Positions 3,340 to 57,650 of a stretch of 64,000 nucleotides of DNA are shown here, one piece after another (position 1 is the stretch's first letter; the number at the start of each line of letters is the position of its first letter). The stretch lies in assembly GCA_016783455.1 (NCBI GenBank), contig JADHWN010000002.1, forward strand, positions 51,115 to 115,114. The letters run 5' to 3'. Source of the DNA: Candidatus Bathyarchaeota archaeon. GTDB taxonomy: Archaea; Thermoproteota; Bathyarchaeia; TCS64. Position numbers and translations under genes: made by a program. Under the pieces are notes generated by a model, which saw only the letters and a list, made by a program, of their open reading frames with translations, did no database searches and was not told where the DNA came from.

Positions 3340-3747
3340 CTACTTGTAGTATCTGACCTCGAGGCGCAGCCGGCTCCTGTAGAGTCGGGGGTGCGTCTCT
3401 CCCTCATCGAGATCCCGCCAGTTGGAGGTCTCGATGAAATCCAAGCCGCCTCCTGGGTCACTGCACTTGGATTGGATGATCCGGTCCACCTCTTCGATCA
3501 TCCTGTGTCTCTTCTCCTGGTCTCCCTTGCTCCAAACATCGATGGCGTATGTAGACGTGACCCTTCTCTGCTGGTTTGGCAGGTCCTCGTGAAACCCCAT
3601 GAAGCGGGGTTGCGTGAGGACATGGGAGACCACGACCTGGGGCATTTTCTGCTTGGCCTCGTACCAGTCGGTGCTGAACTGAGGCGTGAAGTCTACACCC
3701 CAGTCTTCCTCGAGGAGGGTCATCAAAATGACCTTGACGTCTGTCAA
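3340..3747 (-). CDS. Tail terminator / tail completion protein
   Basis: This 135-aa protein lies between the head-closure gene and the tail tube gene, the usual location of the tail terminator that caps the tube and joins it to the head. The sequence shows a start like 'VKVILMTLLEEDW', then 'MPQVVVSHV', 'YAIDVWSKGDQEKRHRMIEEVDRII' and a final 'RLYRSRLRLEVRYYK' strand, a layout seen in gpU/gp17-like minor tail proteins. It overlaps the upstream gene by 4 nt. The function is inferred mainly from synteny. Confidence 0.6.
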   Translation of the reverse strand: MTDVKVILMTLLEEDWGVDFTPQFSTDWYEAKQKMPQVVVSHVLTQPRFMGFHEDLPNQQRRVTSTYAIDVWSKGDQEKRHRMIEEVDRIIQSKCSDPGGGLDFIETSNWRDLDEGETHPRLYRSRLRLEVRYYK

Positions 3748-4130
3748 TCTACCTTTCTCACCGCCTCGAGCATCAGGTAGGCGTCGGTCTTGATTGAGGC
3801 CTCGACGTGGTATCGAATGCCCTCGATCTCCACCTCGTAGCCACCCTCATCGACCGCCGCCCATAGAGCCAGGTAGATCCTGACCGTGTCCAGCTTCAGG
3901 ATACCCGGGGGCTCGTTTCGCTCCCGGCCTCTCCTTTCGATGAAGGCCTTCTCCGTGTGGCTTGTCTCGGAGTAGACGGGCTGTCTGTAGCTGTCAACGC
4001 CTGTCTGCGTGAGTTCGATGATTGTCAGGTTCGTGCCTCGATTCTTTACGGCCTCATCGAAGTGCATGGCTGATTCTGGGGGCCAGGACCTTAGGAAGCC
4101 CGTCCCGAACTGACCGTATTGAAAGCTCAT
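3744..4130 (-). CDS. Head-closure / head-tail joining protein
   Basis: This 128-aa beta-rich protein precedes the tail terminator. Segments such as 'LTIIELTQTGVDSYRQPVYSETSHTEKAFIERR' and 'VEIEGIRYHVEAS' are typical of the SPP1 gp16/HK97 gp7-type head-closure fold, in which a short beta barrel plugs the connector. Position between the connector/spike block and the tail terminator supports this. No catalytic motif is expected. Identity is inferred from pattern and order; a profile search would settle it. Confidence 0.5.
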   Translation of the reverse strand: MSFQYGQFGTGFLRSWPPESAMHFDEAVKNRGTNLTIIELTQTGVDSYRQPVYSETSHTEKAFIERRGRERNEPPGILKLDTVRIYLALWAAVDEGGYEVEIEGIRYHVEASIKTDAYLMLEAVRKVD

Positions 4131-4134
4131 GGGA

Positions 4135-4449
4135 TTATCCCCACGCGCAGTAGTCGTAGACCTGCTCGTTCACGTTGATGTTGTCGTTTCCGACTGTGAA
4201 CCCGTCGGCGTCGAGGCTCTTGATTCGGTTCGCCCGGTTCAGGTGGTAGCTGCTATAGTGAGTCGTACACCGATCCGCCGCATGCCGATCGGTCTTCACG
4301 AAGACCCACGAGTCGCCGTCTCCGTCGAGATGCTTCACAATCTCTACCCTCTTGGGCTGGAATCCGACGCCAGTAATGGCTTGTGTGGCCTGACCGTCCC
4401 CGGTGAACGTCCCGGTCTTGAAGCCTACATGAAATTCTTGTTTGCTCAA
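4135..4449 (-). CDS. Small beta-rich virion protein (DUF7483-like), probable spike/decoration accessory
   Basis: The track ORF begins at a TTG at 4467, but a second TTG at 4449 (MSKQEFHVG) has a GAGG run eight bases upstream and is my preferred start. The protein shows 'FKTGTFTGDGQATQAITGVGFQPKRVEIV' and ends with 'DADGFTVGNDNINVNEQVYDYCAWG'. That 'GFxP-----DGFTVG-----N--YxYxAW' layout is the repeat-like domain found at the ends of many phage tail fibres. It directly follows the beta-helix spike gene, suggesting a detached tip or partner of that spike. It has three cysteines (N-terminal KLS region excluded). Confidence 0.5.
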   Translation of the reverse strand: MSKQEFHVGFKTGTFTGDGQATQAITGVGFQPKRVEIVKHLDGDGDSWVFVKTDRHAADRCTTHYSSYHLNRANRIKSLDADGFTVGNDNINVNEQVYDYCAWG

Positions 4450-4459
4450 CTTACATACC

Positions 4460-5728
4460 TCACGCAATTATGTTGTGGGCCGACTCCGTGTTCGTGCCCC
4501 CATCGATGATAGCGCCCACAGGGGAGCCCGTGTACTGATAGCAGTGATTACCTAAACAGAGAGTCCTGTCAGCGGTGCCCATGATTTCAATGGCGTATTT
4601 ATCGCAGTTGTCAAGCCGATTTCCCACAACCGCGTTTCTATCCCCAGCTACCAGAATGCCGCTGTAGGTCGCGGCGTCGAGAGAGTCGATGTCGACCAGT
4701 GAGTTCCCCTGGATCGTGCTATCCCTGAAGAGAGCGGCGACGTAGACCCCGTGCTTCTTGATCTTGCGGATGGAGTTACCGTTAATTGTGATGTAAGCCC
4801 CATCCTCGCCGTAGATCCCGTATCCTGCTGTGAGCTCGATTGTGTTCCCGCAGATCGTCCCGATTGAGCACTCCGCCTCGATGTGGATACCTGAGGTAGT
4901 CATGTCACTGACATCGTCGGCTCCGGTGATCAAGTTCCCCGTCACATTGAATCGATCCAAGCTGTAGAGAGATATCCCATCCACTCGATTATTCTCAAGT
5001 ACGTTCCCGACTATGGCCACGTTCGCCCCGCCTTGAGCGGCGATGCCCTGCCTGTTGTTGTAGCAATGGTTCCCGATCACGAGAACGGATCCTGTCGGGT
5101 TGGTCATATAGCCTACCTGAATGCCGTTCCAGGAGACCTGATCATGACACAGGTTCCCCCTAACCAGGATCCTATCACATTCCGGCTCGATGTTGATCCC
5201 GTCGTACTCGCTGTCCCAGCAGTCGTTCTCGGTATACCTGCAATCGTCCCCCGCGCTACATATCCCGTGTGCTGCAGCTGATTTTATCCAGCAGTGATCG
5301 ACTTGGATGAACGAGCATGTGGAGCTTACTCTGACACAGTCTCCCTGGTGCTCTAAGGGGTAATACCCCGTCCTGCCGAACTCCTGGTTCAGTCGGTTGC
5401 CGTCGACGAGGAGGTTCGTGATCCGGATGTTCTTTGATGTGCCCGTGACGTAGAACGTGCTGTGACAGGTGTAGACCCGTCCATTGTCGGCGACCTCGTA
5501 CTGGTTCGCCAGGTCGTTGACCATCGTGAGCACGTCGCCGTTTATCTGGGAGATCTCGTTGACCTCAGAGGCAGAATCGTCTCTCACGCAGACGTGCTGG
5601 CCCACTTCGAAGCTGCCGCCTACGGCGACCTGGACCTCTTTCTGGGATGCGGCCGCGTCACTCGCTATGAGCTCCTGTACTTTGTTGGCTGTCTTGAACC
5701 TGGTGGCTTTTCCGACGCCTCTGATCAC
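4460..5728 (-). CDS. Right-handed beta-helix tailspike-like protein, main part (5' end frameshifted)
   Basis: This 422-residue ORF is a pectate-lyase-like right-handed parallel beta helix. It has many short repeats containing N-x-I/V strands, such as 'IRITNLLVDGNRL', 'ILVRGNLCHDQ', 'VLVIGNHCYNN', 'VAIVGNVLENN' and 'FNVTGNLIT'. Such proteins act as virus tailspikes that bind or cut surface glycans. The listed start is a GTG overlapping the stop of the 80-aa ORF. Reading upstream in this frame gives 'GVEDLVIRGVGKATRF', the normal beta-helix entry, so the true N-terminus is the 80-aa ORF in another frame. A -1 shift, mutation or assembly error near 5735 separates them. It is placed between connector and head-closure genes, unusual for a spike. 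Confidence 0.75.
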   Translation of the reverse strand: MIRGVGKATRFKTANKVQELIASDAAASQKEVQVAVGGSFEVGQHVCVRDDSASEVNEISQINGDVLTMVNDLANQYEVADNGRVYTCHSTFYVTGTSKNIRITNLLVDGNRLNQEFGRTGYYPLEHQGDCVRVSSTCSFIQVDHCWIKSAAAHGICSAGDDCRYTENDCWDSEYDGINIEPECDRILVRGNLCHDQVSWNGIQVGYMTNPTGSVLVIGNHCYNNRQGIAAQGGANVAIVGNVLENNRVDGISLYSLDRFNVTGNLITGADDVSDMTTSGIHIEAECSIGTICGNTIELTAGYGIYGEDGAYITINGNSIRKIKKHGVYVAALFRDSTIQGNSLVDIDSLDAATYSGILVAGDRNAVVGNRLDNCDKYAIEIMGTADRTLCLGNHCYQYTGSPVGAIIDGGTNTESAHNIIA

Positions 5729-5967: not shown

Positions 5968-6319
5968 CTAACGCCTCCCCTGGATACCTGGTGTCCTCGT
6001 CGATGTGCCTGTACTCCGAGGCCTCCACCGAGACGCCTCCGTGGAGCCTGTAGATCCTCTCCATCTCCCTCTCCCAGACCTCAAGGGGGTTATGGGCCTC
6101 CTTCCATTCCCCGACTGCTTGGCTCTCGGGTTGTCGTGTCTTTATGGCGTGAGCCGCCAGCAGCATGCTCAGCTTCTTCACCAGCTTGTCCGATGCGCTC
6201 TGGACACCTATCCTCCTGTCGATCTCGGCGTCACTCATCTCGATGATGCCGGAGATCTCCGTGTCCGTGAGGCTGGTCGACACTATGAGCCGCACATCAG
6301 CAGCCGTGCAGTAAACCAA
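5954..6319 (-). CDS. Head-tail connector (gp6-like adaptor)
   Basis: This 121-aa, mostly helical protein begins 'MVYCTAADVRLIVSTSLTDTEISGIIEMSDAEIDRRIG', the pattern of gp6/gp15-type adaptor proteins ('T-xDV----------D--I--LI--A---I----G'), which form a ring beneath the portal. It follows the capsid genes as usual. The C-terminal 'YRHIDEDTRYPGEALDASE' is likely flexible and contacts the next connector. No enzymatic function is expected. Confidence 0.65.
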   Translation of the reverse strand: MVYCTAADVRLIVSTSLTDTEISGIIEMSDAEIDRRIGVQSASDKLVKKLSMLLAAHAIKTRQPESQAVGEWKEAHNPLEVWEREMERIYRLHGGVSVEASEYRHIDEDTRYPGEALDASE

Positions 6320-7583: not shown

Positions 7584-7991
7584 CTACATGTATCCGAGCT
7601 GCACTTTCACGGCAGCGGCTCCGTCGGCGCCGGTTTCAAGAGCTGTGCCTACAACTTCGTCGAAGGTGGGACTGGACACGTCCACGATCCTTCCCTCCTC
7701 TGAGGTCTGCTCAGAGGGCATGACGTGTGTGAAGGCCGTGCATCCTGCTGCTCCAGGCAGGCAGTAGACAACGGTTGGCGCGATCGCCACCTCTCCGTCT
7801 TCGCCGTTGTCGATGTCCATGATGGCGACCCCGAAGGGCCCCGTCTCGGCTGCGGTGATGTCGGCGATGTTGGCGTCGACCAGCGTGACGACGTTGCCCT
7901 TCTTGATGTCCTCGGCTGCGGTGATGGTGATGATCCGCATTCCCTGTTCGACCGCTATGTCGCCGGCTTTGGTGGTCTCGATCCAAGCCAT
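7584..7991 (-). CDS. Capsid decoration protein (DUF2190-like)
   Basis: This 135-aa beta-rich protein sits between the scaffold and major capsid genes. It shows 'GMRIITITAAEDIKKGNVVTLVD' and 'GPFGVAIMDIDNGEDGEVAIAP', the pattern of DUF2190 and related cement proteins (GDV---A---G-V----G-VGVA---I--GE-G-V---G). Such trimers clamp capsid hexamers from outside. The stop codon of the protease gene overlaps its start (1 nt), suggesting translational coupling and stoichiometric production with the head proteins. Confidence 0.65.
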   Translation of the reverse strand: MAWIETTKAGDIAVEQGMRIITITAAEDIKKGNVVTLVDANIADITAAETGPFGVAIMDIDNGEDGEVAIAPTVVYCLPGAAGCTAFTHVMPSEQTSEEGRIVDVSSPTFDEVVGTALETGADGAAAVKVQLGYM

Positions 7992-8413
7992 CAGTTAGCC
8001 GCCTCCCTGCGGTGGCCGAAGAGGCGCTCCCTGGTGTCCTCGACGGCGGCCTCGAAGCTGCTTTTATCGTCCTTGGTGTACTTCGCCTTGGGGCCAGCGG
8101 GCTGAGCCTTCTCGATTCTCTCGGCGACCTTCCCAGCGTCCTCCGCCAGGAGAACGAGGGTCTTGTCGTCGAGCTCCTTCAGGCGCTCCGCCTCTTTATC
8201 CCCGTCCGCAACGAGGCCCGCTTTGAACCGAGCCTCCAAGGCTGTGTCAACTCGTTCTTGGTGTCTCTCAGCCTCCAGGGCCTCGACGCGCTCCTTGAGC
8301 TCGTCCTTCTCAGTCTGCACTCCGTTGAGGTTCTCGTTCTCCGCCTTCAGAGTGTCGATCTCCTTCTGTTTATCCGTCAGTTGCTGACGAAGCTCCTCTA
8401 TCTGAGCTTCCAT
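7991..8413 (-). CDS. Nested scaffold protein from an internal start
   Basis: Within the protease-scaffold gene, an in-frame ATG at 8413 (MEAQIEELRQQ) is preceded 11 nt upstream by a perfect AGGAGG (8430-8425), which is exceptional inside a coding region. Initiation here would give a 140-aa coiled-coil scaffold lacking the protease, as lambda Nu3 is made from within gene C. The nested product is inferred; the signal is directly visible. Confidence 0.5.
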   Translation of the reverse strand: MEAQIEELRQQLTDKQKEIDTLKAENENLNGVQTEKDELKERVEALEAERHQERVDTALEARFKAGLVADGDKEAERLKELDDKTLVLLAEDAGKVAERIEKAQPAGPKAKYTKDDKSSFEAAVEDTRERLFGHRREAAN

Positions 8414-9040
8414 TCCATTTTTTTCCTCCTTTTCATCGGGTTTCAGGTTGCCCTGGGGACCCTGGGCCCCGTCCATGTTGGACTGTGATGTGTAGAGTAC
8501 TCCCGGGCCCGCCATGTGGCCCACGGTGAGTATTCCTGCCTGGGGGTAGGCGGGGTCGGCGACGAAGTCCACCCGCTCGAAGGTGAAGCTCTCTATGACC
8601 TCGTGGCCCTCGCCGCTGGTGATGTGCTCGTCGGGGGCTCCTGTGATGTCCTCGCCGCAGACGCTGCAGGTCACCCTGAAGGCTCTGATCACGACGCTGA
8701 CGGGCCCCCATTCGCCGCCTGTGAGCTTCTCCCAGGCTGTCTCGTCGGTTATCTCGGCGGTGGCGAGGGCGTAGCCGTCGGGCTTCTCCACACGGACCCA
8801 CTTGCCCACCTCCAGGGGCTCGTGGACGTGGTTCACCCTGTACCCGGGTATGCAGCCTAATGGCTTCCCCAGCAGCCCGGGGTAGGCGTCCTCGAGGGCC
8901 TTGTCGGTGACCCTCCAGTTGTTCCTGTTCAGGCTGGTGTTCATCAGGTAGAAGGTGGCCAGCATATCCTCGTCCCCGGACTCGATGCTGTGCACCGCTG
9001 CCCAGAACCTCAGCTCTATTCCTTCACTCACTCTCCTCAT
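7991..9040 (-). CDS. Prohead protease fused in frame to a coiled-coil scaffold
   Basis: This 349-aa protein has an N-terminal assemblin-like protease (about residues 10-185) and a C-terminal scaffold. The protease core has a candidate catalytic His in 'YRVNHVHEPLEVG' and Ser in 'EWGPVSVVIRAF', followed by 'FERVDFVADPAYP', the usual end of the U9/U35-type fold. A C-x2-C plus two His (CSVCGED...EGHEV) are inserted between the Ser strand and the last strands and could bind zinc. After residue 210 come long heptad-like helices (IEELRQQLTDKQKEIDTLKAE). The protease cleaves scaffold and itself during capsid maturation. It overlaps the portal gene by 17 nt and the decoration gene by 1 nt. Confidence 0.7.
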   Translation of the reverse strand: MRRVSEGIELRFWAAVHSIESGDEDMLATFYLMNTSLNRNNWRVTDKALEDAYPGLLGKPLGCIPGYRVNHVHEPLEVGKWVRVEKPDGYALATAEITDETAWEKLTGGEWGPVSVVIRAFRVTCSVCGEDITGAPDEHITSGEGHEVIESFTFERVDFVADPAYPQAGILTVGHMAGPGVLYTSQSNMDGAQGPQGNLKPDEKEEKNGMEAQIEELRQQLTDKQKEIDTLKAENENLNGVQTEKDELKERVEALEAERHQERVDTALEARFKAGLVADGDKEAERLKELDDKTLVLLAEDAGKVAERIEKAQPAGPKAKYTKDDKSSFEAAVEDTRERLFGHRREAAN

Positions 9041-10262
9041 CCTCCAGCTCAGCGAGGTCCCAGCCCATCATCTCCCACGCCTTCCCCAGGCGGCCCCCTA
9101 TCGGCCCCTGGCCCCGCCCATGGAGAACCGCCACGGCCTTCGCCATCTCGTAGACGTCGGACACCCTGACGGGGTTCCACACGTGCTTCACCAGCACCGG
9201 GAGCTGCTCACCCTCGGGCACGGGCTGGCCCTCGTCCTCCAGTATGTTCCGGGTCCACCTGTCGTACCACTGGGCCTCCAGCTCCCGCTTGAAGTACCTC
9301 TGGATGTGGGTGACTGGCCCCTGCACGTAGGCCTCCAGCTCCGCGTAGGCGGTGGCCCTGTTCTCGATGGGCCTCCCCAGCAGGAACCGTGGGGTCCCGA
9401 AGTTCCCGATGATCGATTGGTCCAGCCGCTCAAGGAGCTCGTTGAGCCCCTTGATGTCCGGCGTCATGTCGACGACGGTGGGGGTAACGCTCTCGTTGAC
9501 CGCGATGCTCTTCCCGGCCCTGGCCACGGCCGCGAGGTCCTGAACGGCCCTGTCGGCCTCCTCCTTGCCGAGTCCTGAGGTGTCCGCCTGAAGTATCGTG
9601 TAGGGCGCCCAGATCGTCCGTACGATCTCAGGGAAGTTCTCCCGGAGGAGGTCGTGGCGGGCCTTGCAGATGTCCCTGATGGGCTCCACGTCGCTGAGTC
9701 CTTCCCGGTCTGCCTCCAGGGGCAGGTTGAGGAAGTACAGGAGCTCCGTGGGCTCGTAGAAGCCGTCCCTGCCCTCGTACTTGTAGCCCTGGAGCTCCCA
9801 GTCCTCGGAGAGGTTGGGCTTCAGCCTGGAGCTCTGCAACGAGAGGAGCCACGACGGGTACTCCTCGTCGTCCAGGACGATCTCGAACCCCGCCTTCCCG
9901 TATACGCTGCGCTTGACCTGGGCGACGAACAGGACCTGGTCCATGTTCACCCGCTTGTTGAACCCGTCGACGCCCTCCTCCACGAAGGCGTAATCCTCTA
10001 CATTATCGTCCTCGCCTACAGCTTCGAGGACAGTCTCAAAGCCGGCCGTCATGGTCGCAAAATAGGCATTTGTCACGACACACTTGCGGACGAGCTCGTC
10101 CTGGCGGAACCAGCGGTAGTCCTCGGGCATCCCCGCGTAATACGAGCTGGTCGTGGGCGTCGTGGTCTCCCCGTACCTCTTCGCCTTCGGCGCCCTGGCC
10201 TCCCCGTGGAGGAACCGCCTGAAAACGGGTATGATTCCGGGCCACGTCCTCCCCGACATCAT
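9024..10262 (-). CDS. Portal protein
   Basis: This 412-aa protein is the first large gene of the leftward structural operon. It has features of siphovirus portals: 'YYAGMPEDYRWFRQDELVRKCVVTNAYFAT' at the start, 'YGKAGFEIVLDD' in the middle of the wing, 'LLYFLNLPLEADREGLSDVEPI' and the crown/stem region 'GTPRFLLGRPIENRATAYAELEAYVQGPVTHIQRYFKRELE'. The dodecameric ring forms the vertex through which DNA is packaged. It overlaps the 43-aa ORF upstream by TGATG and the protease gene downstream by 17 nt. No terminase precedes it, which is unusual. Confidence 0.8.
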   Translation of the reverse strand: MMSGRTWPGIIPVFRRFLHGEARAPKAKRYGETTTPTTSSYYAGMPEDYRWFRQDELVRKCVVTNAYFATMTAGFETVLEAVGEDDNVEDYAFVEEGVDGFNKRVNMDQVLFVAQVKRSVYGKAGFEIVLDDEEYPSWLLSLQSSRLKPNLSEDWELQGYKYEGRDGFYEPTELLYFLNLPLEADREGLSDVEPIRDICKARHDLLRENFPEIVRTIWAPYTILQADTSGLGKEEADRAVQDLAAVARAGKSIAVNESVTPTVVDMTPDIKGLNELLERLDQSIIGNFGTPRFLLGRPIENRATAYAELEAYVQGPVTHIQRYFKRELEAQWYDRWTRNILEDEGQPVPEGEQLPVLVKHVWNPVRVSDVYEMAKAVAVLHGRGQGPIGGRLGKAWEMMGWDLAELEDEESE

Positions 10263-18982: not shown

Positions 18983-19246
18983 TCATCTGACCTCCTCCAT
19001 GTGGGCCATCAGCTCATCCCTCCTGGTGGCGACGAACCCACACCTGCAGTAATAGGCAAGGCCGTGAGGGCCCCTGTGGCGTCTATGGCCTGCGGGCTTC
19101 CCGCAGATACAGCTCTCGTGTATGACGTTGATCTGCTTCCCGCACCCCCAGCAGTACTTGACGATTGAGGATACGACGGTCGCCTCATCTCCTGTCTTGC
19201 AGTGGGGGCAGGCCACGGTTAGGGGCATGGGCACGAGTACAGTCAA
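18983..19246 (-). CDS. Multi-zinc-finger protein
   Basis: This 87-aa protein has cysteine pairs 'CPHCKTGD', 'CWGCGKQ', 'CICGKPAGH' and 'CRCGF' followed by 'DELMAHMEE', which gives a C2H2-like end. The first two CxxC pairs are typical of a zinc ribbon; the second two with His make another finger. It overlaps the ParB-like gene by 4 nt, so the two are coupled. Small zinc-ribbon proteins of this sort are frequent in archaeal viruses as transcription or DNA-binding factors. No exact family is recognised. Confidence 0.6.
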   Translation of the reverse strand: MTVLVPMPLTVACPHCKTGDEATVVSSIVKYCWGCGKQINVIHESCICGKPAGHRRHRGPHGLAYYCRCGFVATRRDELMAHMEEVR

Positions 19247-20763
19247 CCAGCCGCCACCTCCGGGGCCTGGTCCTGGACGAACTGCTCAAGGGTCATCTGC
19301 GAGAACCGGGTGTCCCTCGCCAGCCTTCTGATGAGCACAGTATCGGCGCCGTGGCGCTTGCAGAGAGGGCAGAGGGTCGGAGGATCCCTGGAGTCCCCAC
19401 GCTCCACGTAGAGCTCCCTCTGTACACGCCTGACCAGCCCCCCAGCTTCGTATTCGGAGAGGCCGTAGGCCACAGCTATCTCCCAGACGTATACGTCAAG
19501 GTTCGCCTCGGGATGCTCCACGAGATACTCTCTGACGTACTCCTCCGCAGGCTGCTCCGGGGCTACAGGACCGCGAGGTTCGTGCACAGGTTCACTTCTC
19601 GGCTTCTCCGGGAGCATCTGAGGTTCGAGGGCGCCAAGATCCGCCTGCTGAACTACGGCCTCAGGCTCCTCGACGGAGTAGTCGATGTCCTTGATCTGGT
19701 TCCACTGCTGCAACGTGTTCCACTCACCCGAGCCCCTGTGAGGCCTCTTCGACTCCAAGCCGTAGGCGACCTCCCTGATCATCTCGTCGTTGATGGGCAA
19801 CCCCAGGAGGATCTCCGCCCTCTCGGGCTCCATGACCCGGTTATAGGCGGCGTAGAACAGGAGACCGTACTTGACGGCCCTCTGGATATCCTCCAGCTGA
19901 TCCCTGTGCTCCCTGCACCACTGCCTCACATCCCGGGCCTTCACAGTGGAGAGCCCCTGCCTCTCGGGGAGGGGTGGCCTGATCATGTTCTGGGCCTCGC
20001 TGGACCGCATCCTCAGGGGCTCAACCCTCCTGGTCAGGTCGTCGAAGTCCTTCACCGGCTCAACCTCGAATTCCTCCAGCTGCTCCTTGACCTCGGAGAC
20101 AGGCTGACGCTCCTGCCGCCTCATGAACTCCCGGCGCACCTCGCTGAACAGCATGGATATCTGGGTCGACGGAGGAAGATCCTCGTGGACCTTCACGTAG
20201 TGCTCTATCTCCCTGCCCAGCTCACAGAGCTCCTCCTGTGTGGCACCAAGGTTTAGGACGGCTTGGGCCTGTCTGAGACTCATACGGTGGACTGTCGCGC
20301 GCGACAGAACTTCCTCCAACCGGAGAATAGCTAGGCGACGTGAAACCCACTGCTCCCCAGCGTTACCAGGGCGCCCTATTCGTTCAGCTAGTTCCCTCTG
20401 AGAGTGGCCGTGCTCCTGGATCATGTGCCTCAGCCACCGCCCCCTGTCGTACTCTGAGAGGGGCAGCCGGTTCTCGTTCTCAGCCCACTGGGCAAGGAGA
20501 AACCTCTCCCCGTCCAGCTCCTCGACGATGGCGTTCACCTCATCGACACCTATGAGCTCCAAAGCCTCCAGCCGGCAATCACCGAACACAAGCTCGAAGT
20601 CGCCCTCAATCTCAGGGTGAGGCCTCACCTTGATGTCCGACTGCTGGCCATCCTCCCTCAGGCTACCGGCGAGGCGCTCGATCTCTTCGGCCGGCTTATG
20701 GCTCCGTATGACGAACTTAGGCCGGTGTATCCGGCTGATTGATACCCGAATAGACTGGCTCAC
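19243..20763 (-). CDS. ParB-like nuclease/CTPase-fold protein with zinc-finger C-terminus
   Basis: This 506-aa protein starts at GTG 20763, with GGAGG nine bases upstream. Residues about 5-95 form a ParB/Srx-like domain: 'RPKFVIRSHKPAEEIERLAGSLREDGQQSDIKVRPH' and 'FELVFGDCRLEALELIG' (the ParB 'GERR-xA' motif is here GDCRLEA). Residues about 110-175 are a HTH ('HSQRELAERIGRPGNAGEQWVSRRLAILRLEEVL'). The rest is helical and acidic, with a second HTH-like segment and a C-terminal 'CPLCKRHGADTVLIRRLA' finger. Together with the HerA-like ATPase it suggests DNA partition, replication or transcription control. No ParA gene is present in the window. It overlaps the zinc-finger gene by 4 nt. Confidence 0.7.
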   Translation of the reverse strand: MSQSIRVSISRIHRPKFVIRSHKPAEEIERLAGSLREDGQQSDIKVRPHPEIEGDFELVFGDCRLEALELIGVDEVNAIVEELDGERFLLAQWAENENRLPLSEYDRGRWLRHMIQEHGHSQRELAERIGRPGNAGEQWVSRRLAILRLEEVLSRATVHRMSLRQAQAVLNLGATQEELCELGREIEHYVKVHEDLPPSTQISMLFSEVRREFMRRQERQPVSEVKEQLEEFEVEPVKDFDDLTRRVEPLRMRSSEAQNMIRPPLPERQGLSTVKARDVRQWCREHRDQLEDIQRAVKYGLLFYAAYNRVMEPERAEILLGLPINDEMIREVAYGLESKRPHRGSGEWNTLQQWNQIKDIDYSVEEPEAVVQQADLGALEPQMLPEKPRSEPVHEPRGPVAPEQPAEEYVREYLVEHPEANLDVYVWEIAVAYGLSEYEAGGLVRRVQRELYVERGDSRDPPTLCPLCKRHGADTVLIRRLARDTRFSQMTLEQFVQDQAPEVAAG

Positions 20764-22729: not shown

Positions 22730-22947
22730 TTATAATACCGGAAAAAATGGGACTGAAACCGCCCAAAATGGGCAATTCTTAAAAATGCACCTTATAAATA
22801 TGTCGGAAAAGGGTTCTGTTAAGTCTGTGGGACCCAGACCTAGGTGTTAACTATCGGGACCTATACGCCCGCAGTAATTTACTAAGTATTGATAATCTTG
22901 GTTTTATAACGATAAAGTATTAAAGTAGTGTGATGATCCATAATTTG
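22730..22947. promoter_or_regulatory. Spacer upstream of the integrase operon: promoter and palindromes, candidate attP/operator
   Basis: It holds the minus-strand promoter (AT-rich run near 22730-22800) and, at 22823-22861, a near-perfect palindrome GTCTGTGGGACCCAGAC, the palindrome ACCTAGGT, and GGGACC repeated 26 nt apart. Such clusters beside an integrase operon can be attachment or operator sites. No tRNA gene is visible here. Confidence 0.35.
22902..22909 (+). promoter_or_regulatory. TATA box upstream of the three-way-junction RNA
   Basis: TTTTATAA lies about 25 nt before position 22930-22935, so transcription would start 13-18 nt upstream of the structure. A second TATA-like TTTTAAAA at 23003-23010 lies about 25-30 nt before the DUF3800 ATG and could give that gene its own leaderless transcript. 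Confidence 0.45.
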
Positions 22948-22998
22948 CGACTGGGAGGGCCGAAAGGGCTCGCTAAGGATAATATCCTTACCCGGTCG
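22948..22998 (+). ncRNA. Three-way-junction structured RNA upstream of the DUF3800 gene
   Basis: CGACTGGG (22948-22955) pairs with CCCGGTCG (22991-22998), with one G-U pair. Inside are two hairpins, GGGCC-GAAAG-GGCTC (22957-22971) and TAAGGAT-AAT-ATCCTTA (22974-22990). Only three junction bases are unpaired (A, GC), so 48 of 51 bases are in stems or loops of a compact junction. A TATA box lies just upstream and the DUF3800 gene 37 nt downstream on the same strand. From memory, conserved structured RNAs near DUF3800 genes have been described in bacteria (Rfam 'DUF3800' motifs); I cannot say whether this belongs to one. A DNA cruciform or operator is the alternative. Confidence 0.55.
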
Positions 22999-23034
22999 AC
23001 TATTTTAAAAGTCTATTAATACCATGTATTTCAA

Positions 23035-23775
23035 ATGCGCATTTTATATTTAGATGAGTCTGGCGGTCCAAATAGTTGGGACAATCAAAAAAACTTCGTA
23101 TTAGGAGGAGTTGCTGTTCATGAAGGGCAAATATATTCCTTGACGCGAGATCTAAATGACCTCCAAGAAAAATATTTTCCTGGCATTAGAATACCAATAG
23201 AATTTCATGTAAGACCCATAAGACAGGGGAAAGGACCACATTTCAACAAATTTAGCTATGAAGAACGTCACAATATTATTGATGAGGTTTATGAGATCAT
23301 CAGAACATGTGGTTTTCCGAATATAATTCCTTTCGCTACAGTACTTGATGTATCATCTGCCATTAATTCGAATCAAGTATGTCGTGATTGTTTTGAAGAT
23401 GTATGTAAAAATTTTAACCTGTATCTATTAGATCAATTTAAAAAAGGCTTTCCAAGCAAAGGCTTGTTAATTATTGATCGAGGTCGTGAAGGACAATATC
23501 GTCAACATTTTGGCGAATTAAAAAAGTCTGAGGCAGTCGAGGAATATTTGGGGAATATTGTTGACATCCCTTATTTTGCGGCATGTAGAGAAACGCGCAT
23601 GCTACAAATTGCAGATTTTATTTCTAATGCGGTTTTCAGATATTATGAGTGGAATGTTACAGACAATTTTGATAAAATAACCTCTCTATTTTTCAGGGGA
23701 TCATACCGTTTTCCTGTCAATGGATTAAATCATATAACAAAGGATGAATCGTGTCAATGCTGCGTTTGTAGATAA
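23035..23775 (+). CDS. DUF3800 domain protein (RNase H-like fold, putative nuclease)
   Basis: This 246-aa protein begins 'MRILYLDESGG' (acidic D5/E7-type first strand) and contains 'NFVLGGVAVHEG', 'EFHVRPIRQGKG', 'LLIIDRGREGQYRQHF' and 'MLQIADFISNAVFRYYEW', the typical DUF3800 order of acidic residues (D...D...D) of an RNase H-like fold. Function is not established in the family; nuclease or toxin-like action in mobile elements has been suggested. It is AT-rich and probably a transferred gene. It starts at ATG 23035, about 27 nt after a TATA-like box, and follows the three-way-junction element. The C-terminal 'ESCQCCVCR' is unusually cysteine-rich. Confidence 0.8.
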   Translation: MRILYLDESGGPNSWDNQKNFVLGGVAVHEGQIYSLTRDLNDLQEKYFPGIRIPIEFHVRPIRQGKGPHFNKFSYEERHNIIDEVYEIIRTCGFPNIIPFATVLDVSSAINSNQVCRDCFEDVCKNFNLYLLDQFKKGFPSKGLLIIDRGREGQYRQHFGELKKSEAVEEYLGNIVDIPYFAACRETRMLQIADFISNAVFRYYEWNVTDNFDKITSLFFRGSYRFPVNGLNHITKDESCQCCVCR

Positions 23776-30202: not shown

Positions 30203-31369
30203 ATGCCGAGTGAACGCAGCTTCGATGAGACCTACCCCGCCAATGAAAGCTACGAGAGGTTCGACCAGAGGGACTCCGCCTTCGGCAGGCATCTGAAGAA
30301 GACGGGCAGGACTGTAGGCTTCGGCTCCGACGAGGAGAAGGCCGAGAGGATCAGGAAAGACCTGCCCGGGTACTCCCTCGTCGACTACGCGTTCAACTCG
30401 GCTGCGGGGATGTACGAGACCCTCCCGGGGGAGCACTACTCTCAGGGGACGGGCTTCTACAAATGGAGCTCACTGGGCGTCGCCCGCAAGCCCGAGGGGA
30501 TCCCCCGATGGGAGGGGACACCCGAGAAAGCCGCCAAGATCGTTGAAAAGGCGGCGAAGTACTACGGGGCAGCCGGCGTCGGCTTCTGTGAGCTTGACAG
30601 GCGCTGGGTGTACACTGCGACCCGCTTCGGGAAGCCCATCGTCTTCGAGGACATAGAGGAGGGGTACGTCAGCGAGGAGAAGGCGGTGATCCCGGAGAGC
30701 CACAAGTACGTCATCGCCCTCACGGTGCCCATGGAGTACGAGGAGACCCTCTACTCCCCGACCCGCCTCGAGGTCGCCACCGTCATGGGGTACAGCAGGA
30801 TGCACATCCTGGCGGGCCACGTCGCCGAGTTCATACGGGGCATCGGCTACCACGCCGTCCCCACCGGCAACGACACAGCCATGAGCATCCCCATCGCCAT
30901 CCAAGCCGGCCTCGGCCACCTGGGCCGCCACGGCAGGCTCATCACCTGGGAGAGGGGCCCCCTCGTCAGGATCCTCAAGATATTCACTGACCTCCCCCTG
31001 CCGGTCAGCCCCCAAGCCGCCGATGGGATCATCGAGTTCTGCGAGGTCTGCAAGAAGTGCGCGAAGCACTGCCCGAGCAAGTCCATCTCCGAGGGGCCGC
31101 GGACCTGGGAGGGGCCGAGTGCAGCCAACAACCCGGGAGTGTACAAGTGGTACACGGACGCCGAGGCGTGCCTTGAGTACTGGAACGAGATCGGGAACGG
31201 GTGCAACAACTGCTTCCGGGTCTGCAGCTTCACAAAGTCTCCCGGATTCCTCCACGACGCTGTGAAGTGGTTCATCCGGAACGTCCCCCAGCTCAACAGG
31301 CTCTGGGTCTGGGCCAACGACGCCATGGGCTACGGCAAAATGCCTGATCCCCGGAAGTACTGGGATTAG
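30203..31369 (+). CDS. Cytosolic reductive dehalogenase-like protein (corrinoid/Fe-S)
   Basis: This 388-aa protein has the C-terminal half of reductive dehalogenases: 'IQAGLGHLGRHGRLITWERGPLVRILKIFTDLPL' followed by two [4Fe-4S] motifs, 'CEVCKKCAKHCP' and 'C-x11-C-NN-C-FRV-C' (in GNGCNNCFRVCSF). The family uses a base-off cobalamin for reductive cleavage of carbon-halogen bonds, or in QueG for a related reduction. There is no Tat signal or RdhB-like membrane anchor gene next door, so it is probably soluble and not respiratory. It may process halogenated or other compounds in the cytosol. The N-terminal half is less conserved. Start is ATG with a TTTTTTATTT-like TATA upstream. Confidence 0.75.
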   Translation: MPSERSFDETYPANESYERFDQRDSAFGRHLKKTGRTVGFGSDEEKAERIRKDLPGYSLVDYAFNSAAGMYETLPGEHYSQGTGFYKWSSLGVARKPEGIPRWEGTPEKAAKIVEKAAKYYGAAGVGFCELDRRWVYTATRFGKPIVFEDIEEGYVSEEKAVIPESHKYVIALTVPMEYEETLYSPTRLEVATVMGYSRMHILAGHVAEFIRGIGYHAVPTGNDTAMSIPIAIQAGLGHLGRHGRLITWERGPLVRILKIFTDLPLPVSPQAADGIIEFCEVCKKCAKHCPSKSISEGPRTWEGPSAANNPGVYKWYTDAEACLEYWNEIGNGCNNCFRVCSFTKSPGFLHDAVKWFIRNVPQLNRLWVWANDAMGYGKMPDPRKYWD

Positions 31370-57195: not shown

Positions 57196-57315
57196 CGTTC
57201 CCTCCGCGCGTCGCTGGACCACCCATAGTCCATGCTCGCTTCATTACCAAACAGGCTGGAGACTAGGCCAGGATGCAATCCTGAGAACTCGAATATTCCG
57301 TTTCTTCTATCCATT

Positions 57316-57405
57316 CATGTTTCCTCCGCCGGCATTATCCGGATCAGGTTCAAAGGGTCGACGACATCCGTCCTCTCAGCCGAGCCTACGCCCAGCTCCC
57401 CTTTC
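57316..57405 (-). promoter_or_regulatory. TPP (THI-element) riboswitch core
   Basis: On the minus strand, GGGGAGC...GCTGAGAGG...ACCCTTTGAACCTGATC-CGGATAATGCCGGCGGAGGAAAC matches the thiamine-pyrophosphate aptamer: CUGAGA, CCUUUGAACCUGAUC and GGAUAAUGCCGGCG are the conserved core. I could not find a convincing P1 outer stem, so it may be slightly degenerate. The next gene downstream (57195) encodes a RAM-domain protein, not a thiamine gene. Confidence 0.85.
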
Positions 57406-57650
57406 GATTCAACCCCCCCCAAGAGGCTAATAAGCTTAACCCCGCGGAGGGTGGACCGAAAAAGTAGTCCACCCATTATTTATAGACACATGTCGATACC
57501 ACATCGGCGGACATTTAAAAGGGATAGAACCTTCATGTTTATCCTCAAGCGGTCCGCCATCTTCTCCATAATATATTCAGACTCAGAAACTACACGCGAA
57601 TGTGCGCGCGTTGTTTAAAATAGCGAGATTATCTGATAAGGTGAAGAATT

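Follow-up and report, generated by a model that had tools for sequence, protein, structure and literature searches.

A small structured RNA encoded directly ahead of a protein gene may be a leader of that gene's mRNA, a discrete partner of the protein or a chance fold, and an archaeal locus raises this question in a compact form. In a 64,000-nucleotide stretch of a Candidatus Bathyarchaeota archaeon genome (contig JADHWN010000002.1; hereafter the window), a short three-way-junction RNA precedes a DUF3800 gene. A reading of this DNA from its sequence alone (hereafter the sequence-only reading) had proposed that the two form a pair, with the RNA as partner, substrate or regulator of the protein.

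The DUF3800-VI RNA and its protein in the window

RNAfold of positions 22948-22998 (+ strand) gives a three-way junction with an 8-bp closing stem and hairpins of 5 and 7 bp. The stems are P1 (22948-22955/22991-22998), P2 (22957-22961/22967-22971) and P3 (22974-22980/22984-22990), and the junction bases left unpaired are A22956, G22972 and C22973. This is the tight junction described in the sequence-only reading, which correctly placed one G-U pair in the closing stem and missed a second in the 5-bp hairpin. The predicted energy is -25.4 kcal/mol (z -3.96), and 1 of 200 shuffled sequences folds equally well. When the entire window is searched with cmscan in Rfam 15, the DUF3800-VI RNA (RF02915) is placed at exactly 22948-22998, with 40.8 bits against a curated cut-off of 35. 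The match spans model positions 1-52 of 52; along the whole model, and in lying upstream of DUF3800, the window RNA is like the family, with no difference in any feature tested. The structured RNAs near DUF3800 genes to which the sequence-only reading pointed are an existing Rfam family, and the cmscan proposed for this region recovers it. The window RNA is a real structure and an archaeal member of an already described family. A chance hairpin was considered and rejected; the shuffle z-score, the RF02915 match and the covariation described below all argue against it. The source genome holds one RF02915 RNA and one DUF3800 gene.

The open reading frame at 23035-23775 (+ strand) begins 36 nt after the RNA ends and encodes a 246-residue protein. 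It matches DUF3800 (Pfam accession PF12686, E 1.6e-12), which agrees with the gene assignment made from sequence alone. The AlphaFold2 model of this protein has a mean pLDDT of 93.9 and a pTM of 0.92. Good Foldseek matches in the PDB are limited to RNase HII and RNase H2 (best E 7e-5, probability 1.0), with TM-scores of 0.34-0.47. These low scores suggest that the predicted structure is a rearranged version of the RNase HII fold. A Cas12-linked DUF3800 has likewise been reported to adopt an RNase H fold that is catalytically rearranged (PMC10910872). Searches for the protein in PDB sequences and in NCBIfam returned no relative and no match, respectively.

Acidic residues are strongly conserved in an alignment of 28 family sequences. 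D7 (23053-23055), E8 (23056-23058) and an acid at position 177 (D or E; D177 in the window) are present in 28 of 28, D194 (23614-23616) in 27 and D148 in 14. The protein is a putative nuclease. A C-terminal H-x6-CxCxxC motif (23731-23769, + strand), a possible zinc knuckle, occurs in most of the family and is missing from the proteobacterial plasmid and phage branch. In the protein tree, a supported clade unites the window protein with other archaeal sequences and a few bacterial ones, and at least two label changes are required among the archaeal rows. This suggests, and does not prove, transfer between domains.

The DNA around the cassette is AT-rich (about 35-40% GC, versus about 60-65% to the left of it), and the cassette adjoins a gene for a tyrosine-type phage integrase (21323-22492, - strand; PF00589, E 2.4e-18; phrog_1, E 4e-27). 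We counted the integrase as context, outside the cassette. Positions 2000-22730 form an archaeal provirus-like stretch of about 60-66% GC with a scaffold-like gene (7991-9040), a portal-like gene (9024-10262, just under the Pfam cut-off), a ParB-like gene (19243-20763) and the integrase gene. The cassette sits just outside this stretch or at its integrase end. Around the window cassette we found no convincing terminal repeats, and in comparison with the same-genus genome G556 synteny is lost, leaving no insertion border that can be mapped. The window cassette is best read as cargo carried by a Bathyarchaeia genome next to an integrase of provirus type, in keeping with the archaeal element supposed earlier. 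Elsewhere in the window, we observed a reductive dehalogenase-like gene with 4Fe-4S domains (30203-31369, + strand) and a TPP riboswitch (RF00059, 65.8 bits; 57303-57412, - strand). A TPP riboswitch also lies near a Bathyarchaeum cassette (L012, 4335-4445).

Conservation, covariation and linkage of the RNA to DUF3800 genes

Relatives were gathered with a query alignment of three archaeal proteins. This protein alignment identified 46 loci, in Thermoplasmata, Bathyarchaeota, Chloroflexota, Acidobacteriota, Gemmatimonadota, Pseudomonadota and others. Single-sequence protein scans of genome and viral contigs had returned no relatives, and the alignment query found them in genomes and none in viral contigs. 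Three well-scoring viral contigs were instead found by DNA pattern, and all three carry DUF3800. Another 10 of the 13 viral stretches recovered with loose RNA patterns score at most 19.3 bits or not at all and lack DUF3800; we discarded these as chance matches. The RNA-DUF3800 pair occurs in Archaea and in many bacterial phyla, on plasmids and in Pseudomonas phages.

The RNA is tightly linked to the gene. A model built from ten of the RNAs has 31 matches in 516 kb, all 31 on the coding strand and 5' of DUF3800. A second model has 38 matches in related loci, and every significant one again precedes DUF3800 on the coding strand; the two of 38 that lie elsewhere have E values of 0.16 and 0.57. 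A search that did not depend on the protein found RF02915 in 6 of 398 genomes of the phylum, and a DUF3800 gene adjoins it in 6 of 6. In a further Bathyarchaeia genome, what follows the RNA is a degraded DUF3800 gene, represented by its first ~24 codons. Within the same class, DUF3800 proteins that are 21-30% identical to the window protein have no RNA match alongside, and the RNA thus belongs to one DUF3800 subfamily.

The alignment of 31 RNAs has changes on both sides of 20 of 20 base pairs. Paired cells make up 94.5% of this alignment, versus 73.6% after shuffling and at most 44% in slid alignments. The covariation score is 0.774 versus 0.356, and none of 500 shuffles scores as high; the alignment was fitted to the model and is biased toward the structure, yet the margin is large. 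The analysis was also run on 38 sequences. Copies on E. coli plasmids that the model missed have the same topology, with an 8-bp P1, a one-base J1/2, P2 and P3, and no base in J3/1. The RNA structure is under selection. On the possibility that conservation and covariation might be lacking in homologous loci, which the sequence-only reading had named as telling against it, the answer is plain: the RNA is conserved and covaries. With DUF3800 beside every well-scoring locus, the proposed pairing of RNA and protein is strongly supported.

The DUF3800 gene is often broken by stops, frameshifts or deletions (L002, L015, L017, L035, L036, L039, L041, L042, L046, L047, L050 and L072). The upstream RNA is intact in most of these loci, a pattern compatible with the loss of a costly protein such as a toxin, but also with ordinary decay.

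Promoters, terminators and the product of the cassette

We scored promoters in 26 bacterial loci as the best -35/-10 pair with a -10 element ending 3-14 nt before the RNA. A sigma-70 promoter scores better than dinucleotide shuffles in 22 of the 26 (p < 0.05), and in 24 the pair is better than at other positions of its own locus. The -10 element usually ends 6-8 nt ahead of the first P1 base, and transcription is therefore expected to start at the RNA 5' end. For six archaeal relatives, a scan of the expected range puts the start of the best TATA-like box between -27 and -33. The window has two candidates on the + strand. The strong box TTTATAAC (22903-22910, predicted start near 22933) is the one noted in the sequence-only reading, and would start transcription about 15 nt ahead of the RNA. 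The weaker GTATTAAA (22917-22924) lies at -31, within the spacing of the archaeal relatives, with a predicted start on the first base of the RNA; about 5% of other positions are as good.

A termination signal lies between RNA and gene in 21 of the 26 bacterial loci. In 14 loci a significant U-tract follows P1, and P1 plus U-tract then acts as the terminator; in seven more a separate GC-rich hairpin with a T-run stands between the RNA and the ORF. A Shine-Dalgarno match is absent from 13 of the 14 U-tract loci and present in six of the seven separate-hairpin loci. Termination signals are weak in archaeal loci, including the window, where a short T-run (TTTT, 23003-23006, + strand) is a possible archaeal U-tract terminator that is weak taken alone (4% of other positions are as T-rich). 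With a promoter at the RNA and a terminator before the ORF, transcription is expected to yield mainly the short RNA, with the DUF3800 mRNA arising by read-through.

These observations can be accommodated in several ways. We favour, at a probability of roughly one half, a reading in which the RNA is discrete, acts in trans and is the partner, probably the antitoxin, of an RNase H-like nuclease. The cassette would then have two parts: a discrete RNA of ~51-60 nt with a promoter to itself, and the gene for an RNase HII-like DUF3800 protein, which follows and is reached through read-through of the termination signal. Abundant RNA would bind the protein via the conserved junction and keep it inactive, and the nuclease would be released when the RNA is lost or on infection. 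The archaeal copy would be expressed like its bacterial relatives. ToxI, which holds ToxN inactive, is a model for such inhibition of a protein by an RNA. In the DUF3800-VI cassette, RNA-protein binding, nuclease activity, toxicity and neutralisation are all putative. The single-copy RNA and the weak archaeal terminator count against an antitoxin.

Alternatively, the RNA may be a cis-acting leader, a 5'-UTR attenuator of the DUF3800 mRNA that binds a ligand or, in autoregulation, the DUF3800 protein, and alters termination or translation. Rfam presently labels RF02915 'Cis-reg', the RNA always immediately precedes the gene in the same orientation, and in one group P1 plus U-tract is a terminator with the ORF following 15-25 nt later without a Shine-Dalgarno match. 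We nonetheless consider a leader unlikely. Seven loci have a separate, unrelated terminator hairpin between RNA and ORF, the spacing between the two ranges from 15 to 544 nt among relatives, and the RNA is the first transcribed feature, with no evident alternative partner for P1. On the present evidence, a discrete RNA is preferable to the Rfam label.

A quite improbable reading is that of an active ribonucleoprotein, in which the nuclease would depend on the RNA as a cofactor to act on invader nucleic acid, as with the partner RNAs of retron, TnpB or Cas systems. The obligate pairing of RNA and protein and the RNase H-like fold are consistent with such a complex. DUF3800 is also associated with some Cas12a2 loci (PMC10910872), and 14 of 28 family proteins match the PADLOC candidate-defence family PDC-M04A weakly. 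Against this, the RNA loops are variable, and the RNA has no room for a guide because it is almost fully base-paired and ends at P1. The Cas12a2-linked protein shares with the window protein a DUF3800 domain with a rearranged RNase H fold, but is fused to TPR and lies next to CRISPR, whereas the window DUF3800 is stand-alone with its own RNA.

Mobility and relation to toxin-antitoxin systems

Cassettes on mobile elements bear on the proposed antitoxin role. In the temperate Pseudomonas phage FBPa47 the cassette lies within 3667-4845 of the analysed locus (L057), beside the repressor region. Phages U7 and U9 carry a module with a YafO toxin in the same slot. In E. coli, the cassette occurs on small plasmids only (11 of 5426 genomes contain most of the query, none on a chromosome). 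On plasmid NZ_CP104685 (L054), two directly repeated sites bound it (1433-1460 and 2464-2491), which we take to be cer/Xer-like from the cer core. A nearly identical 2.6-kb plasmid (L107) lacks the ~1.03-kb cassette segment and keeps one site, and is the excised form. The cassette, flanked by direct Xer-like repeats, thus behaves as an exchangeable Xer module. A sister plasmid with the NZ_CP104685 backbone has HigA and a RelE/ParE toxin in the cassette slot. At two independent mobile-element slots, the RNA-DUF3800 cassette therefore stands in place of a toxin-antitoxin module, an exchange that is circumstantial because such slots can hold other cargo. Together with the layout, this interchange lends circumstantial support to the toxin-antitoxin-like or defence pair of the sequence-only reading.

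A Bathyarchaeum locus has ~1.75 kb containing the cassette (L013, 4480-6233) that is absent from the same-genus genome G087 (L102, about 3509-3515). This stretch carries at its ends an inverted repeat of 10 bp, GATACTGTTA, in turn bracketed by a direct repeat of 10 bp, ACAGAAACAG, in a transposon-like arrangement. Inside it lies a tRNA-like sequence near 6022-6100, where ARAGORN finds no tRNA gene. A search for an empty site corresponding to L072 found none, and in genomes G130, G094 and G459 homology to the L006 locus ends before the cassette. In Ottowia the cassette (L038, 1753-6217) lies between an isoleucyl-type tRNA synthetase gene (ileS) and lspA, and the DUF3800 stop overlaps the lspA start. 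The genes ileS and lspA are normally adjacent in one operon. On another reading, the cassette would be a transposon-like element in its own right, with its mobility enzyme in the RNase H-fold protein. This would accord with the Bathyarchaeum stretch and the position in Ottowia but is very improbable, as loci share no common ends and none were found around the window copy, there is one copy per genome, host recombinases at the Xer-like sites explain the movement in E. coli, and G087 could equally be a deletion.

The closest worked precedent is RCd22/AbiF of C. difficile. There a structured motif RNA (RF03085) has its own SigA promoter, and the toxin gene with its RBS lies beyond a Rho-independent terminator; RCd22 binds AbiF directly and thereby neutralises it, both in cis and in trans (PMC12373285). 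Both systems have a promoter, a structured RNA, a Rho-independent terminator (for DUF3800-VI, in the bacterial relatives) and a protein gene, and both are phage-borne. They differ in the protein, which is Abi_2 in AbiF and DUF3800/RNase HII-like here (DUF3800 alone in Pfam), and in the RNA, which has two hairpin motifs in AbiF and one three-way junction in DUF3800-VI. The antitoxin role is demonstrated for the AbiF RNA, whereas for the DUF3800-VI RNA we infer it.

Type III toxin-antitoxin systems are recognised by a promoter, repeats, a terminator and a toxin (PMC8860590). ToxIN, CptIN and TenpIN share with the bacterial DUF3800-VI cassettes the order of RNA gene, terminator and nuclease-type gene, and occurrence on plasmids or phages. 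The promoter is present in 22 of 26 bacterial relatives, with TATA boxes in archaea, and the terminator in 21 of 26, with only a short T-run in the window. No tandem RNA repeats of the ToxIN kind occur, each locus having one significant model match, and neither PDB sequences nor Foldseek gave a match to a ToxN-, CptN- or TenpN-type toxin (RNase HII/H2 only). We therefore do not file the cassette as type III, lacking as it does the repeats and the toxin fold; by analogy, it probably works like one.

What is new here may be the case for a discrete trans-acting RNA with a toxin-antitoxin-like role. Tentatively, DUF3800-VI could be a new class of RNA antitoxin and nuclease toxin, or of abortive infection, in which a single-copy three-way-junction RNA would neutralise a toxin of RNase HII fold, with a distribution across Archaea, bacteria, phages and plasmids. 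The promoter and terminator layout and the swap with toxin-antitoxin modules provide a concrete and cheap functional test in E. coli. If the proposal is true, an RNase H-type toxin with an RNA antidote would join the known systems, such RNA-protein pairs would extend to Archaea, and by extension the remaining orphan RNA motifs of DUF3800 genes would rank as sister classes.
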